This document shows positions 3,337-32,411 of a stretch of 64,000 nucleotides of DNA, piece after piece. The notes below the pieces were generated by a model. It made no database searches. It was not told where the DNA came from and saw only the letters and a list, made by a program, of their open reading frames with translations. Origin of the DNA: Haloarcula taiwanensis (GTDB taxonomy: Archaea > Halobacteriota > Halobacteria > Halobacteriales > Haloarculaceae); NCBI GenBank assembly GCA_002844335.1, contig CP019154.1, positions 2,790,001 to 2,854,000 of the forward strand, given 5' to 3'. Positions within the stretch are counted from its first letter, which is position 1, and each line of letters begins with the position of its first letter. Both the position numbers and the translations under genes were made by a program.

Positions 3337-4263
3337 TTAGCTTTCTGACGTCGCGTTTCCTTCAGTCCCGTTGTCCGTTTCGTCAGTTTCGTCGCCTTCG
3401 TCAGCCTCCTCAGTCTCATTGGCTGGCGGTTCTTCAGTTTCGTCGGCGGGCGGTTCTTCAGTTTCGTCGGCGGGCGGCTCTTCAGTCTCGTTGGCTGGGG
3501 GCTCTTCGGTCTCGTTGGCTGGTGGCTCTTCAGTCTCGTTGGCTGGGGGCTCTTCGGTCTCATTCGCTGGTGGCTCGATAGTGATCTCGGCGAACGCACC
3601 GTCGTCGCGCGTGAAGACGCTATGGATGTACGTGTCCGGCCCGACACCGGTCGTGTCGACGGTAAACGTCACGTCAGCAGATTCGTTCGCGTCGAGGCTC
3701 ACGGACTCAGAGACCAGCGGCTGGCCGTTCAGTCGGAACTCGACGCTCTGGGTCGTGTTGAACTCGTTCGGGTTGGCGACAGTTGCGGTGACCGTGACGT
3801 TGTCACCGGCGGTGGCGTTCGTCGGTGCGTCGAGGCTCTCCAGCGTGAACGAGTCAGAGATGGTAACCGCGGCGACCTGTCCGTCGTCGCTGGTGAAGAC
3901 ACCGTGGCGGTAGTCACCGGGTTCGATGCCGGTCGTGTCCGCCGAGAACTGAACGGTTGCGCTCTCGTTAGGCTCAAGCGTGACGAGCGTCCGGTCGACG
4001 ACGGCCCCGTCGAACCGGAACGCCACGGATTCAGTCACCGCGGTGTTTTGATTGTTCGTGACCGTCGCGGCCACGTCAGCAGTCGAGTTGGGAGCGACGC
4101 TCTGGGGTGCGGTCAGGGAATCGAGAGTGACCCCCGTGTTCGCGGCTTGTTCTGACGGCGATTCCTGTTGCGCTGTCACGCCCGGTACGGCCCCGACCTG
4201 TGCGGTGAGGCCGCCGACGACGAGGAGCGCAGCGAAAACGGCGAGTGTGCGAGTTCGTATCAT
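3337..4263 (-). CDS. Secreted CARDB-like protein with PPANETEE tail repeats
   Basis: A 308-residue exported protein. The N-terminus (MIRTRTLAVFAALLVVGGL) is a signal peptide ending near VTAQQ. Two tandem beta-sandwich units of about 95 residues follow. Each contains a stretch of the form NESA-V-F--DTTG--P--Y-H-VFT-DDG, as in CARDB/BatA-like adhesion domains. The C-terminus is an eight-residue repeat (see 3410-3577) and then an acidic tail with further N-x-T/S sequons. There is no C-terminal membrane anchor, so it is released or held by partners. The ATG at 4263 is chosen because it directly precedes the basic-hydrophobic signal and has a TTTAT element about 60 nt upstream. It is probably an N-glycosylated surface protein; its ligand is unknown. 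Confidence 0.85.
   Translation of the reverse strand: MIRTRTLAVFAALLVVGGLTAQVGAVPGVTAQQESPSEQAANTGVTLDSLTAPQSVAPNSTADVAATVTNNQNTAVTESVAFRFDGAVVDRTLVTLEPNESATVQFSADTTGIEPGDYRHGVFTSDDGQVAAVTISDSFTLESLDAPTNATAGDNVTVTATVANPNEFNTTQSVEFRLNGQPLVSESVSLDANESADVTFTVDTTGVGPDTYIHSVFTRDDGAFAEITIEPPANETEEPPANETEEPPANETEEPPANETEEPPADETEEPPADETEEPPANETEEADEGDETDETDNGTEGNATSES
3410..3577 (-). repeat. Seven 24-bp tandem repeats encoding EPPANETE
   Basis: Seven head-to-tail 24-bp units at the 3' end of the CARDB-like gene encode EPPANETE. Five units carry Asn-Glu-Thr, an N-glycosylation sequon; two adjacent units have Asp in place of Asn and lose it. The DNA copies are very similar, so the array is probably young and able to change length. 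Confidence 0.95.
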
Positions 4264-4641: not shown

Positions 4642-5577
4642 ATGACCATGCGCGTGACGTTTCTCGGGACGAGTGGGGCCGTGCCGACGACCCAGCGCAA
4701 CACGAGCAGCATCTTCGTCAACCGCGACGGCGACTACCTCCTCTTCGACTGCGGCGAGGGCACACAGCGACAGATGATGCGCTTTGGGACCGGCTTCGCT
4801 ATCGACCACCTGTTCGTCACGCATCTCCACGGCGACCACGTCCTCGGGATTCCGGGCCTGCTCCAGACGTGGGACTTCAACGAACGCGACCGCGCCATCG
4901 CCGTCCACACGCCGGCGGGCACGCGCGGGAACATCAAACAGCTCATTCAGGCCAACGGGACGACACCGTCGTTTCCCGTCCGCATCAACGAGGTGTCGGC
5001 TGGAGACGTCGTCCTCGACCGGCCGGAGTACGAGATTCGAGCCATCGAGACGGCTCATCGCTGTGCCAGCGTCGGCTACGTCCTCGACGAGGACGACCGG
5101 AAGGGGAAGTTCGACCGGGAGAAAGCCGAAGAAGAGTTCGGCATCCCGCCGGGGCCGAAATACTCCAAGCTCCACCGCGGTGAGGCCATCGAACACGAGG
5201 GCGAGACCATCCAGCCGGAGGCCGTCGTCGGGCCGCCCCGTCCCGGTCGGCGGTTGGTCTACACCGGCGACACGCTGCCGACCGAGAGCGTCATCGAAGC
5301 GAGCGAGGGCGCTGACCTGCTGGTCCACGACGCCACCTTCGCCGAGGACCGGAAAGAGCGGGCGAAGGCGACAGCCCACTCTACTGCCCGGGAGGCCGCC
5401 GACGTAGCGCGACAGGCCGGCGCGTCGACACTGGCACTGACGCACATCTCGACGCGTTACGCCGCGAGCGCCGACAAGCTAGTTGACGAAGCTCGGGACG
5501 CGTTCGACGGCGAGGTCGTGCTCGCCGAAGACGGGATGGAGCGCCGCGTCGAGTTCCCGGACGCGGGCGAATCCTGA
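4642..5577 (+). CDS. rnz: Ribonuclease Z (tRNA 3' endonuclease)
   Basis: 311 residues, the normal length for short-form RNase Z. It cuts the 3' trailer from pre-tRNAs so that CCA can be added. It shows the metallo-beta-lactamase signature THLHGDH, which binds the two zinc ions, an N-terminal FLGTSGAVPT, the FDCGEGTQ strand, VYTGDT with a metal-binding Asp, and a late HIS motif (LTHISTRY). The ATG at 4642 (MTMRVTFLG) follows AGAGG at good spacing. An open frame continues upstream, but it lacks homology-like sequence. The single tRNA gene in the window encodes no CCA, in line with the need for this enzyme. Confidence 0.96.
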   Translation: MTMRVTFLGTSGAVPTTQRNTSSIFVNRDGDYLLFDCGEGTQRQMMRFGTGFAIDHLFVTHLHGDHVLGIPGLLQTWDFNERDRAIAVHTPAGTRGNIKQLIQANGTTPSFPVRINEVSAGDVVLDRPEYEIRAIETAHRCASVGYVLDEDDRKGKFDREKAEEEFGIPPGPKYSKLHRGEAIEHEGETIQPEAVVGPPRPGRRLVYTGDTLPTESVIEASEGADLLVHDATFAEDRKERAKATAHSTAREAADVARQAGASTLALTHISTRYAASADKLVDEARDAFDGEVVLAEDGMERRVEFPDAGES

Positions 5578-5619
5578 TGAGATAGTGCAGCATTTATTCG
5601 TTGAAGCAGTAGCGGAGCC

Positions 5620-28772: not shown

Positions 28773-29981
28773 TCAGGTGATCGGGAGGAACCTGAACACC
28801 AGATACGCCGCGAGGGTCGCGATCGAGGGGACGACGTTCTGGAGGAAAATTACTCTCGCAGTGGTCCCGGGTTCGAACAGATCCGACGCCGACGGGATGT
28901 CCTCACGCGATTCCTCGCCGATGGGGTCGGTCTCGGCCGGCTTCGGCGTCCCTTTGTTGCCACCGACAGTCGGGGCGTCTGCGGCTTCCGCGTCGGTGGT
29001 CAGCGCACCGACAGACGCGACGGGTGCTTCTCCCTGCACAGTGTCTGAGAGGCTCGTCGTTCGCGTCGCACGACCCCACCCGAGTCCGACGATGCTCATT
29101 GTGGCGATGATGACGAAACTGGCAGGGATACCCAGCGCGGAAAGGAAGGTGACGATAGTCGAGGCGACTGCCGCGACGACGATGGCGGCGACCAGCGGGA
29201 GGTCGGTCAGGTCGTTGCCGACCGTGTCCATCGTCCGGCGGGCGATGGTGAACGCACCGAGGCCGATAGCGCCGCCACCGAGCAGGATCGCCGGGTACAG
29301 CTCCAGAGAGCCGTTGCCGACAAGCGGTGCAACGGCATTGGCGACGTTCGATGCTCCCGCAGAGAAGCCCATGTAACATCCGATACCGATGACGACGACG
29401 GTCCCGACGAACTCACGTGGTGTCGTGTTCTCGCCGAGCGCCGGCCGCGGAATCGCACCGGAGCGGTCGAAATCCAGTAGCGCCCCCTCGCTCTGTGAGA
29501 CGGCGAACCACTCGACGAGTCTCGGATAGAAGTACCGCCCGATGACGCCGCTGACCCAGAAGGCGATAATCGGCGAGACGAGCCACCACGAGACGATTTC
29601 GAGCATCAGGGCGGCGTTCAACGTCCCGCGAGCGAGGCCCAGGCCAGCGATAGCGCCGACGGCCGTCATCGACGTCGACGCCGGAACCCCGACCACGTTC
29701 GAGAGGAACAGCGCGACGCCGATGAAAAACAGGACGACGATGCTGATCAGCGGCGAGAACTGCGTGGCGACGAGGTCACTGCCCAGGCTCTGGACGACGG
29801 CCGGGCCGACAAGGAGCCCGCCAGCCATCGCGAATATCGTCATCAGGGCCGCTGCCGAGAGTTTCGAAAGCGTGTTCGATCCGACCGCAGGCCCGAACGC
29901 GACACCCGTGGATGACCCCCCGATGTTGAAGCCGACGAAGATAGCTACCAGAACACCGAGGGCAAAGAGAACTTCGACCAT
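28773..29981 (-). CDS. PiT-family inorganic phosphate transporter (copy 1)
   Basis: A 402-residue integral membrane protein with about 10 helices, which should import phosphate with Na+ or H+. The second internal repeat carries SAGASNVANAVAPLVG, the usual PiT signature. The first repeat has FNIGGSSTGVAFGPAVGS where most PiT proteins have GANDVANAFG. Acidic hydrophilic residues (about 310-375) separate the last two helices. It is a paralogue of the next gene upstream (30123-31286) and is transcribed in the same direction across a 141-bp gap. Sulfate or another anion is less likely but possible. Confidence 0.87.
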   Translation of the reverse strand: MVEVLFALGVLVAIFVGFNIGGSSTGVAFGPAVGSNTLSKLSAAALMTIFAMAGGLLVGPAVVQSLGSDLVATQFSPLISIVVLFFIGVALFLSNVVGVPASTSMTAVGAIAGLGLARGTLNAALMLEIVSWWLVSPIIAFWVSGVIGRYFYPRLVEWFAVSQSEGALLDFDRSGAIPRPALGENTTPREFVGTVVVIGIGCYMGFSAGASNVANAVAPLVGNGSLELYPAILLGGGAIGLGAFTIARRTMDTVGNDLTDLPLVAAIVVAAVASTIVTFLSALGIPASFVIIATMSIVGLGWGRATRTTSLSDTVQGEAPVASVGALTTDAEAADAPTVGGNKGTPKPAETDPIGEESREDIPSASDLFEPGTTARVIFLQNVVPSIATLAAYLVFRFLPIT

Positions 29982-30122: not shown

Positions 30123-31286
30123 TCAGTAGGCGAGAACGTACTGGAATACCAGAAACGACGCAAGGGCTGACATCGACGGTGCCAGTATCCAGAGCATGAC
30201 AACGCGACCAGTCGCGGCGGGGTCGAAGAGGTCTGCCGCCGAGGTTACGGACTCCGGGTCTTCCTGACCGATTGGTTCGACTTCGCGCTCCTCCGGTGGC
30301 GACCACGCAGCTTCATCGCGGTCGGTCGTCAGCGCGTCAACGGTAACGCTACCACCTCCACCGCTAGCGGCGGCCCCGGTGACAGCCGCGCCCGCTGCGT
30401 CAGCCAGAGTTGTCGTCCGGGTGGCCCGGCCCCACCCCAGACCGACGACGCACATTGTTGCTGAGACCGCCAGACTCGCTGGGATTCCGGCCCAGGATAA
30501 CAACCCGATGATTGTCGCACTCACGGTCTCGACGATGAGCGCCGCGAGAATCGGGAGTTCGGTGAGATCGTTCCCGACCGTATCGAGTGTTCGCCGAGCG
30601 ATGGTGAACGCACCGATGCTGATAGCGCCACCAGCGAGCGCGACGCCCGGATAGAGCCCCAGCTCGCCGCTGCCGACAAGGGGAGCGACAGCGTTGGCGA
30701 CGTTCGACGCCCCCGCGGAAAACGCCATATAACAGCCGATAGCGACGACCAGAAACTGTCCGATCCGCTCACGCCGCGACGTGTCCGGCCCCGTGCTCTC
30801 GAAGGCGACCCTGACTTCGAGATGTGGGTAGAGGTAGCGCCCGACGACTGCCGACAGCCAGAACGCAGTGATAGGCGCGACGAGCCACCACGAGACGATA
30901 CGCCCCATCACGGTCCAGTCGATAGTCCCGGTCGCGACGCCGAGACCGGCAATAGCACCGACGGCAGTCATCGAAGTCGATGCCGGCACCCCAAACAGGT
31001 TCGAGACCAGCAGGGCAAGTCCAACGAAAAAGAGGATGACGACGCTCGCGAGGAGGGTAAACTGTCCGCTCGGGACGATGCGACCGCCCATCGTATCGAT
31101 GACCTCCGTTCCGATGGTTGCCCCGCCGAGGAGTGCGAACGCCGACATCAGGACGGCGGCCCACTCCTTCGAGAGCGTGTCCGACCCCACTGCCGGACCA
31201 AAAGCAACACCGGTCGAAGAGCCACCGATGTTGAAACCGACGAAAATGGCAACCAGAAGCCCGATAGCGAAGAGAATCGAGACCAT
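30123..31286 (-). CDS. PiT-family inorganic phosphate transporter (copy 2)
   Basis: A 387-residue paralogue of the previous entry with the same order of helices and motifs: FNIGGSSTGVAFGPAVGS near the N-terminus, GVPASTSMTAVGAIAGLG, SAGASNVANAVAPLVGSG, and an acidic loop before the last helix. The strong match along the whole length indicates tandem duplication followed by divergence, mainly in the acidic loop. ATG 31286 (MVSILFAIG) is preferred over an upstream TTG. The two copies may differ in affinity, or one may supply a different anion. Confidence 0.87.
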   Translation of the reverse strand: MVSILFAIGLLVAIFVGFNIGGSSTGVAFGPAVGSDTLSKEWAAVLMSAFALLGGATIGTEVIDTMGGRIVPSGQFTLLASVVILFFVGLALLVSNLFGVPASTSMTAVGAIAGLGVATGTIDWTVMGRIVSWWLVAPITAFWLSAVVGRYLYPHLEVRVAFESTGPDTSRRERIGQFLVVAIGCYMAFSAGASNVANAVAPLVGSGELGLYPGVALAGGAISIGAFTIARRTLDTVGNDLTELPILAALIVETVSATIIGLLSWAGIPASLAVSATMCVVGLGWGRATRTTTLADAAGAAVTGAAASGGGGSVTVDALTTDRDEAAWSPPEEREVEPIGQEDPESVTSAADLFDPAATGRVVMLWILAPSMSALASFLVFQYVLAY

Positions 31287-31439
31287 GTCCAACAGCAACT
31301 CCTGACGGGTCTAAATAATACCGTTCGTGACCGCTCTCGGAGACACACGATTCAACGCTGGCGTCTCGTCGGGATGGGCCACAGAGCAGCCCGTACGCCC
31401 GTCCATCGCGCACAATCGATGGCCGACCGTCACAGCCGT

Positions 31440-32312
31440 TCAGTCGCGGTCGCCATCGCCGTTGTCAGCCGGCACCGTCTCTTCGACTTCTGACGCTGTC
31501 TCCTCGACCTCGCTTGCCGTTTCCTTGGCCGCTTCGACCTCGTCGGTGACTGATTCAGCGGTCTGTTTCGCATCGCTGGTCCTATCCTTGACATCAGTCG
31601 TTTTGTCTTTCAGTTCAGTCGTTTTGTCTTTCGCTTCTGTCGCTTTGTCCTTGACCTCGGTTGTCTTGTCTTTGACTTCCGTTGTCTTGTCCTTGACTTC
31701 GGTCGTCTTGTCCTTGACCTCGGTGACCTTCTCAGCGGCGTCCTCGTCGCCAGCCTCGGTCGCAGTCTGTTCGACTTCGTCGGCCGTCCGCTCGACTTCG
31801 TCGGCTGTCTGTTCGACCTCGTCGACGGTTTCCTCCACTTCGTCAGCAGTCTGTTCCACCTCGTCGGCGGTCTGCTCAACTTCGTCGGCGGTCTGCTCGA
31901 CATCCTCGGCGGCCTTGTCGACCGTCTCAGCGGCGGTTTCGACCTCGTCGGCGGTCGTCTCTAGCTCCTCAGCTGTCGTTTCCAGTTGCTCGGCGGCCTC
32001 TTCGAGTTCAGCGGCTTTGGTGGCGACATCCTCGTTCGTCCGTTCGAGGACGTTCGCGAGGACGAGAAACTGTAGCAACCCGACGACGACGAACGCCGAA
32101 ATGGCGATGCTGGCCGCGGTCGCAAGTACCGACACCGCGCCGGCACCGAGCGGGAGAACGCCGAACTCGGCCAGCCCCCAGGCCAGCGCCAGACCGGCGG
32201 CGACGACCATCACGGCCTGTTCGAAGAGCTGGTACTCACGCTCGTACGGCCCAAACATGAGCGCTTCGAGCCGGCGGGCGAGCGGTGTGAGGACGAGTGT
32301 AGCAGTACCCAT
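31440..32312 (-). CDS. Membrane-anchored heptad-repeat coiled-coil protein
   Basis: A 290-residue protein. Two hydrophobic helices (about 31-52 and 59-84) anchor it. Residues about 93-285 are an almost perfect seven-residue repeat: an EQTADEV block (about 137-186), then a KDKTTEV block (about 199-248), then an acidic SEVEETA tail. There is no Cys or Trp in the repeats and no enzymatic motif. The KDKT block resembles LEA group 3 or apolipoprotein-like helices. The cytoplasmic rod would be about 28 nm long if fully helical. It follows the PiT genes on the same strand and is divergent from hisA. A membrane-organising, stress or scaffold role is inference. Confidence 0.8.
   Translation of the reverse strand: MGTATLVLTPLARRLEALMFGPYEREYQLFEQAVMVVAAGLALAWGLAEFGVLPLGAGAVSVLATAASIAISAFVVVGLLQFLVLANVLERTNEDVATKAAELEEAAEQLETTAEELETTADEVETAAETVDKAAEDVEQTADEVEQTADEVEQTADEVEETVDEVEQTADEVERTADEVEQTATEAGDEDAAEKVTEVKDKTTEVKDKTTEVKDKTTEVKDKATEAKDKTTELKDKTTDVKDRTSDAKQTAESVTDEVEAAKETASEVEETASEVEETVPADNGDGDRD
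31569..31904 (-). repeat. 21-bp periodic repeats encoding EQTADEV and KDKTTEV
   Basis: Two blocks inside the coiled-coil gene. About seven units code for EQTADEV (31755-31904) and about seven for KDKTTEV (31569-31718). Codons differ between copies while the amino acids stay the same, which points to selection on the protein rather than very recent DNA duplication. Confidence 0.9.
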
Positions 32313-32411
32313 GGCGGACCTTTCCCATCACAGCGTAAAAGCATGCGGGTCACTGGCGTCCGCACGCATCGGACCGACACGCTTTCGACGGCTGCCGCCG
32401 GACCACCGGCC

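Follow-up and report, generated by a model that had tools for sequence, protein, structure and literature searches.

The gene at positions 31440 to 32312 of the window, which is the whole 64,000-nucleotide stretch of Haloarcula taiwanensis DNA analysed here, probably encodes a headless antiparallel coiled-coil mast that is anchored in the membrane and faces the cytoplasm, and that would measure from 4 to 14 nm across the few haloarchaeal genera in which its relatives occur. An earlier note on this DNA had described a two-helix anchor followed by a rod of EQTADEV (acidic) and then KDKTTEV heptads, and this architecture was confirmed, with ~185 heptad residues. The rod is not a single run, and consists of two equal arms flanking a conserved Gly-Asp break at residue 188. 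The gene and its parts are distributed as follows.

31440 to 32312, (-) strand: whole gene, 290 amino acids, two-TM anchor and predicted antiparallel coiled-coil hairpin (open reading frame and translation; orthologues)
32028 to 32312, (-) strand: anchor, residues 1-95, a short helix at 9-20 and then two TM helices
32157 to 32213, (-) strand: TM helix 1, ~residues 34-52 (hydropathy)
32058 to 32114, (-) strand: TM helix 2, core ~residues 67-85 (hydropathy; AlphaFold2 helix 57-89, low confidence)
31752 to 32027, (-) strand: arm 1, residues 96-187, acidic heptads (AlphaFold2 helix 94-187)
31740 to 31760, (-) strand: hinge, residues 185-191 (TEAGDED), centred on G188 (alignment; model break 188-189)
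31473 to 31745, (-) strand: arm 2, residues 190-280, mixed-charge heptads (AlphaFold2 helix 190-279)
31440 to 31472, (-) strand: acidic C-terminal tail, residues 281-290, and stop codon (alignment; differs among orthologues)
32334 to 32340, (-) strand: A/T-rich TATA-like element TTTTACG (by-eye comparison of 30 orthologue upstream sequences)

Two hydrophobic segments, near residues 34-52 and 62-85 of the 290-residue protein, could be distinguished by hydropathy, and the anchor loop between the TM helices is short and nearly uncharged. More Lys and Arg residues lie beside the TM helices than in the loop in all 41 family members compared, and following the positive-inside rule the N and C ends of the anchor are predicted to be cytoplasmic. 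Cysteine is found nowhere in the protein. The TATA-like element, which takes the form TTATCC or TTATAC in other orthologues, is situated ~23-28 nt 5' of the start codon, a position that suggests a leaderless transcript.

Residue identity at a lag of seven reaches 0.65 in arm 1 and 0.57 in arm 2 (0 of 5000 shuffles reach each value), while identity at lag 11 in the rod of the window protein is 0.11, which equals background, and the hydrophobic power of the rod falls at a period of 3.5 and not of 3.67. The near-identical repeats are located chiefly at residues ~139-187 and ~196-245, with the membrane-near ends of both arms also consisting of heptads, of more diverse sequence. The arm 1 heptads incorporate Ala at a, Val or Leu at d, Glu at e and Thr at g (net charge -33), and those of arm 2 Thr, Ala or Val at a, Val or Ala at d and Lys at both e and g (net charge -12). 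Codons differ beneath these constant residues, with Glu encoded by 24 GAG and 21 GAA codons, and Thr and Ala by four different codons each. Among 12 equal-length orthologues (66 pairs), pN/pS was 0.054 for arm 1 and 0.080 for the hinge and arm 2, compared to 0.161 for the anchor. The amino acid pattern has therefore been selected, as the earlier note had argued from its variable codons and constant residues, and to judge by these ratios the heptad protein is under strong purifying selection.

All 32 genomes of the genus gave matches, comprising 30 intact genes and two relics, and the named members with the gene include Haloarcula argentinensis, H. sebkhae, H. japonica, H. pellucida and Halomicroarcula rubra. 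The relics, in G007 and G025 (both incomplete assemblies; loci L166 and L167, respectively), each retain ~30 codons between hisA and the PiT phosphate permease gene, corresponding to the end of TM helix 2 and the start of arm 1. As these two genomes carry only a relic, the rod gene is dispensable, or at least not essential everywhere. The anchor profile matched in 30/293 genomes of the order at E <= 0.001, and a broader anchor profile in 38/391 genomes of the class and 40/146 of the family. True relatives outside the genus, as decided by reading the matched proteins, are restricted to two genera of the same family (6 + 1 species) and two genera of another family (4 + 1), giving 42 intact members (30 in the genus, 7 in the two related genera and 5 in the other family). 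A decayed or frameshifted relative with anchor and arm was observed in a third haloarchaeal family (G141; L154, ~4900-5600, (-) strand), and no relative was found in the plasmid and viral-contig collections. Two anchor-profile matches (L121 and L122) proved to be unrelated, armless proteins and were dropped, and none of the weak matches at ten places (E 0.0004-0.01) was a relative on inspection. Five of the six weak matches covering residues 6-74 appear to belong to one transporter-like, YeeE-like family, while the sixth (L084) has no matching frame; the other four gave no convincing match.

The arms were measured in 41 of the 42 intact members (G391, L153, was left out): arm 1 was counted as starting at the Val of VATKAAELE and stopping at the hinge, where arm 2 starts and continues until the helix ends at RERL or EETV. 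These landmarks, as well as several hinges, were picked by reading the sequences and the zero offset is partly a choice; landmarks chosen by eye can set a zero offset, not its constancy across a threefold range of lengths. Arm lengths vary from ~30 to 92 residues, and the two arms are exactly equal in 29/41 members, within three residues of each other in 37/41 and within seven in 40/41. In an alignment of 30 orthologues, a conserved TGDEDAAE break occurs mid-rod with gaps equal in number on both sides, and the hinge around G188 is kept through most of the genus. The main states in the genus (92/92, 85/85, 78/78, 57/57 and 50/50) are all whole heptads apart, the exceptions being 48/43 and 46/48 in L026-L028, while states outside the genus include 60/60, 62/60, 57/62, 61/54, 35/32, 33/34 and 30/33. 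The H. pellucida orthologue is one of the short ones, with arms of 57/57, and as a hairpin it would be ~8.5 nm long. The differences of 1-7 residues between the arms of L026-L028, and of the relatives L110-L113 and L117-L120, are not whole heptads. The sole large exception among the 41 is the orthologue L020 (the same gene as L071), with arms of 92/57, which reflect either a real asymmetric deletion or a repeat collapsed in the assembly; arm equality is thus not absolute, unless the repeat array of L020 was mis-assembled. Within the genus, nearly all length changes are of whole heptads and equal in both arms. Repeats missing or scrambled in orthologues would, in the terms of the earlier note, speak against its reading, and this applies only in part: the arrays are shorter in some of these, but the heptad register is kept.

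On a tree derived from the anchor, arm base, hisA and PiT, several forks of which are weak, the 27 genus members without L026-L028 require a minimum of 8 changes in arm 1, 8 in arm 2 and 8 in the pair, and the arms therefore change on the same branches, apart from in L020. Independent contrasts across all 30 genus members gave r = 0.73, a value that none of 10,000 permutations reached. Given that the two arms carry different repeat sequences, one slippage event cannot alter both, and the matched change must thus have been selected.

Taking pairing pattern and structural models together, the rod very probably folds back as an antiparallel hairpin. Folding of the window protein about G188 places a opposite d' at 26/26 core positions, and at this centre the e-e' and g-g' contacts comprise 9 attractive and 1 repulsive, a balance matched in 4/2000 shuffles of the surface positions; a register shifted by one heptad also fits the core, with a slightly smaller overlap. 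When paired antiparallel, attractive edge contacts exceed repulsive ones in 39/41 proteins, and arm 2 is richer in Lys and Arg than arm 1 in 41/41. Two copies that exchanged arms would show a sequence pattern identical to that of a hairpin. The AlphaFold2 model of the window protein (alignment of six sequences) incorporates helices at 94-187 and 190-279 with a break at 188-189, and pLDDT values of 90-95 for residues 141 to 230 when these are taken in blocks of ten. The anchor has pLDDT <50 (pTM of the model 0.47), and its predicted arrangement hence rests on hydropathy and on the positive charges outside the loop (41/41). For a short orthologue, also modelled from six sequences, helices were predicted at 93-152 and 155-213 with lower confidence. 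Foldseek comparison of the window model yielded three matches at E <= 0.001, all chemoreceptors, and the best VIA-align neighbours were chemoreceptor hairpins, for example 2ch7 (Z 12.8, rmsd 2.8, 199 aligned), where long helices and helical bundles may routinely reach a Z of about 13. The short model gave no Foldseek match at E <= 0.001, the first four rows again being chemoreceptors. A sequence search of solved structures gave three matches at E <= 0.001: pRLB-519, a three-helix bundle and a protein origami triangle (8p4y), the last an example of the man-made coiled coils among the closest solved-structure sequences to the arms.

A straight rod, in which the arms form one long helix in a parallel dimer or trimer with other copies and the Gly-Asp is only a kink, would accord with the canonical heptads and with the match to the Pfam Alanine_zipper family (PF11839; 26.5 bits for the whole protein and 28.4 for arm 1, above the cut-off of 23.1). 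It would, however, leave the equal arm lengths unexplained, and it conflicts with the helix break at the hinge in both AlphaFold2 models and with the repulsion expected when arm 2 pairs with itself in parallel (8 repulsive versus 1 attractive contacts in the window protein; 166 versus 39 over the 41 proteins), so that we regard it as unlikely. The LEA/apolipoprotein-like identity proposed in the earlier note, taken here as a protectant without ordered structure in water that would fold when dried or when at the membrane surface, draws on the small size and very hydrophilic, Lys/Glu/Thr-rich repeats of the protein, its halophilic host and a weak ApoLp-III match. That match reaches 20.0 bits against a cut-off of 36.3 (arm 1), the top 25 Pfam hits include no LEA family, whether the query is the whole protein or either single arm, and the repeat has a period of 7 with a hydrophobic period of 3.5 and no signal at 11 residues. 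Furthermore, arms that match, a hinge between them and the charge pattern all require a paired structure, and because it is an antiparallel hairpin, and not a disordered protectant, that needs such matched arms and charges, the proposed identity is unsupported and very improbable. Neutral growth of a functionless low-complexity repeat would allow for arrays of variable length and for the two genomes of the genus with only a relic, yet is scarcely credible for a gene with pN/pS of 0.05-0.08 in its arms, paired length changes and intact copies in 30/32 genomes of the genus.

Two further alternatives concern the partners of the protein. The usual divergent neighbour of the rod gene is hisA, and a PiT phosphate permease gene occurs downstream on the same strand in 28/30 genus members and in 7/7 loci from the two related genera, as might be expected if the rod protein were an accessory or regulator of this permease. 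We consider this role doubtful, as PiT is not near the rod gene in L027/L028, the most divergent genus members, or in 5/5 loci of the other family, while hisA and PiT are adjacent without a rod gene in four relatives from other genera of the family (L170, L171, L172 and L174) and PiT is still present in the genomes that retain only a relic of the rod gene. Since the two neighbours can adjoin without the rod gene, and some rod genes are without PiT nearby, the neighbourhood may be inherited. Around L064 and at L161 and L163 of the other haloarchaeal family, inspection of the neighbouring genes by eye showed no partner in common. The window itself contains two tandem PiT-type permease paralogues (28773-29981 and 30123-31298, (-) strand), of which several relatives keep only the second beside the rod gene, and elsewhere (3406-3576) a 24-bp tandem repeat array of 7.1 copies with 87 % matches. 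Quite improbable is a chemoreceptor-like protein of derived type, acting within chemosensory arrays or modulating them. The MCPsignal family scored 15.5 bits against the whole protein and 20.5 against arm 1, below the cut-off of 34.6, and membership of the MCP chemoreceptors was rejected; the hinge motif TGDEDAAE is also unlike the CheA/CheW-binding tip. Speaking for this alternative, the top structural matches are MCPs, and the combination of two TM helices with a cytoplasmic antiparallel hairpin and symmetric heptad indels follows the MCP style outlined in PMC5907407.

In the preferred reading, that of a hairpin mast, a small integral membrane protein would project an antiparallel coiled coil from the cytoplasmic membrane face into the cell. 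Arm 1 (96-187) would exit the membrane and turn at G188, with arm 2 (190-280) coming back to the membrane surface, and the predicted stalk of ~92 residues would, at the usual helical rise, be ~14 nm long. Pairing of the arms would involve core layers of Ala/Val and Thr/Val, in which a faces d', together with Glu-Lys contacts in which e faces e'. Changes in length would arise as heptads are gained or lost in tandem within the half nearer the tip, with selection presumably holding the arms equal because an unmatched arm leaves an unpaired helix. The protein may act as a spacer or scaffold that lies close to the membrane and associates with itself, two hairpins perhaps forming a four-helix bundle. 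This role is put forward tentatively, on the grounds that no sensory, catalytic or binding domain was recognised in the window protein, and that the arm bases and tip are common to genus orthologues at every length. It is nevertheless the most likely role, that of a phosphate-transporter partner being less so. The earlier note had likewise suggested, as one possibility, a spacer that organises the inner membrane face; the location gains from the Lys and Arg bias in 41/41 members, while the spacer role is the one we infer to be likeliest. A fixed ruler is unlikely, as here the sequence is conserved and the length changes, whereas spacer coiled coils usually keep their length and not their sequence, according to PMC5082667. 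With somewhat less than even confidence, mast length can be regarded as tunable in whole heptads, both arms together, and as setting an adjustable layer or spacing of 4-14 nm at the inner membrane face.

The family represents a natural series of matched-length coiled-coil hairpins, with ~30 to 92 residues per arm and several members in named Haloarcula species. With it one can examine which route a two-arm coiled coil takes from one length to another when the intermediates are unmatched, and whether the length of a membrane stalk is sensed by anything in the haloarchaeal cytoplasm. Symmetric heptad indels are moreover a sequence signature that can expose hairpin folds among repeats usually set aside as low-complexity. 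This length pattern is best known from chemotaxis receptors and is found here in an apparently undescribed family, no description of which was found in a search of the open-access literature.

The claim of the earlier note that no described system has such a design was too strong, as chemoreceptor hairpins share the two-arm design, and their lengths differ between families by symmetric seven-residue insertions or deletions, as reported in PMC5907407. Like the MCP cytoplasmic domain, the rod protein is, on sequence and prediction and with the exception of L020, a membrane-anchored antiparallel hairpin with symmetric heptad indels. It differs in that the stretch between the TM helices is too short to hold a ligand-binding domain, and in having no conserved signalling tip and shorter arms, typical MCP arms exceeding the 30-92 residues observed here. 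The SMC/Rad50 proteins (structural matches 5nnv, 5xg2) similarly contain an antiparallel intramolecular coiled coil with a hinge, and PspA/Vipp1 (4whe, 6zvs), which are peripheral ESCRT-III-like proteins, form coiled-coil hairpins at membranes, although the Z values of these matches (10-12) are common for helical hairpins. Unlike the former, the rod protein has two TM helices in place of an ATPase head or dimerising hinge domain, and it differs from the latter in its two-TM anchor and in heptad arrays whose number varies. LEA group 3 proteins are likewise repetitive, hydrophilic and rich in Lys, Glu, Thr and Ala, but have a motif of 11 residues where the rod has 7, along with a membrane anchor and paired arms. 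The Ala-rich heptad core is shared with the alanine-zipper lipoproteins Lpp/OprI; Lpp is a lipid-anchored parallel trimer, whereas the rod protein has two TM helices and, being free of cysteine, no lipobox cysteine. Neither NCBIfam NF040598 (28.9 bits, cut-off 43) nor DUF948 (PF06103; 24.1 bits, gathering cut-off 37.2) reached its cut-off on the window protein. The window anchor had no Pfam match at E <= 10, and comparison of 13 family anchors with Pfam and NCBIfam produced scattered weak matches (<=3/13 per family; best Holin-X, E 5.6e-4). As the protein is no chemoreceptor by sequence, lacks a lipobox cysteine and has an unmatched anchor, we call this a new family built on a structural principle that is already known: an apparently undescribed haloarchaeal family with chemoreceptor-style symmetric heptad evolution but no signalling tip.
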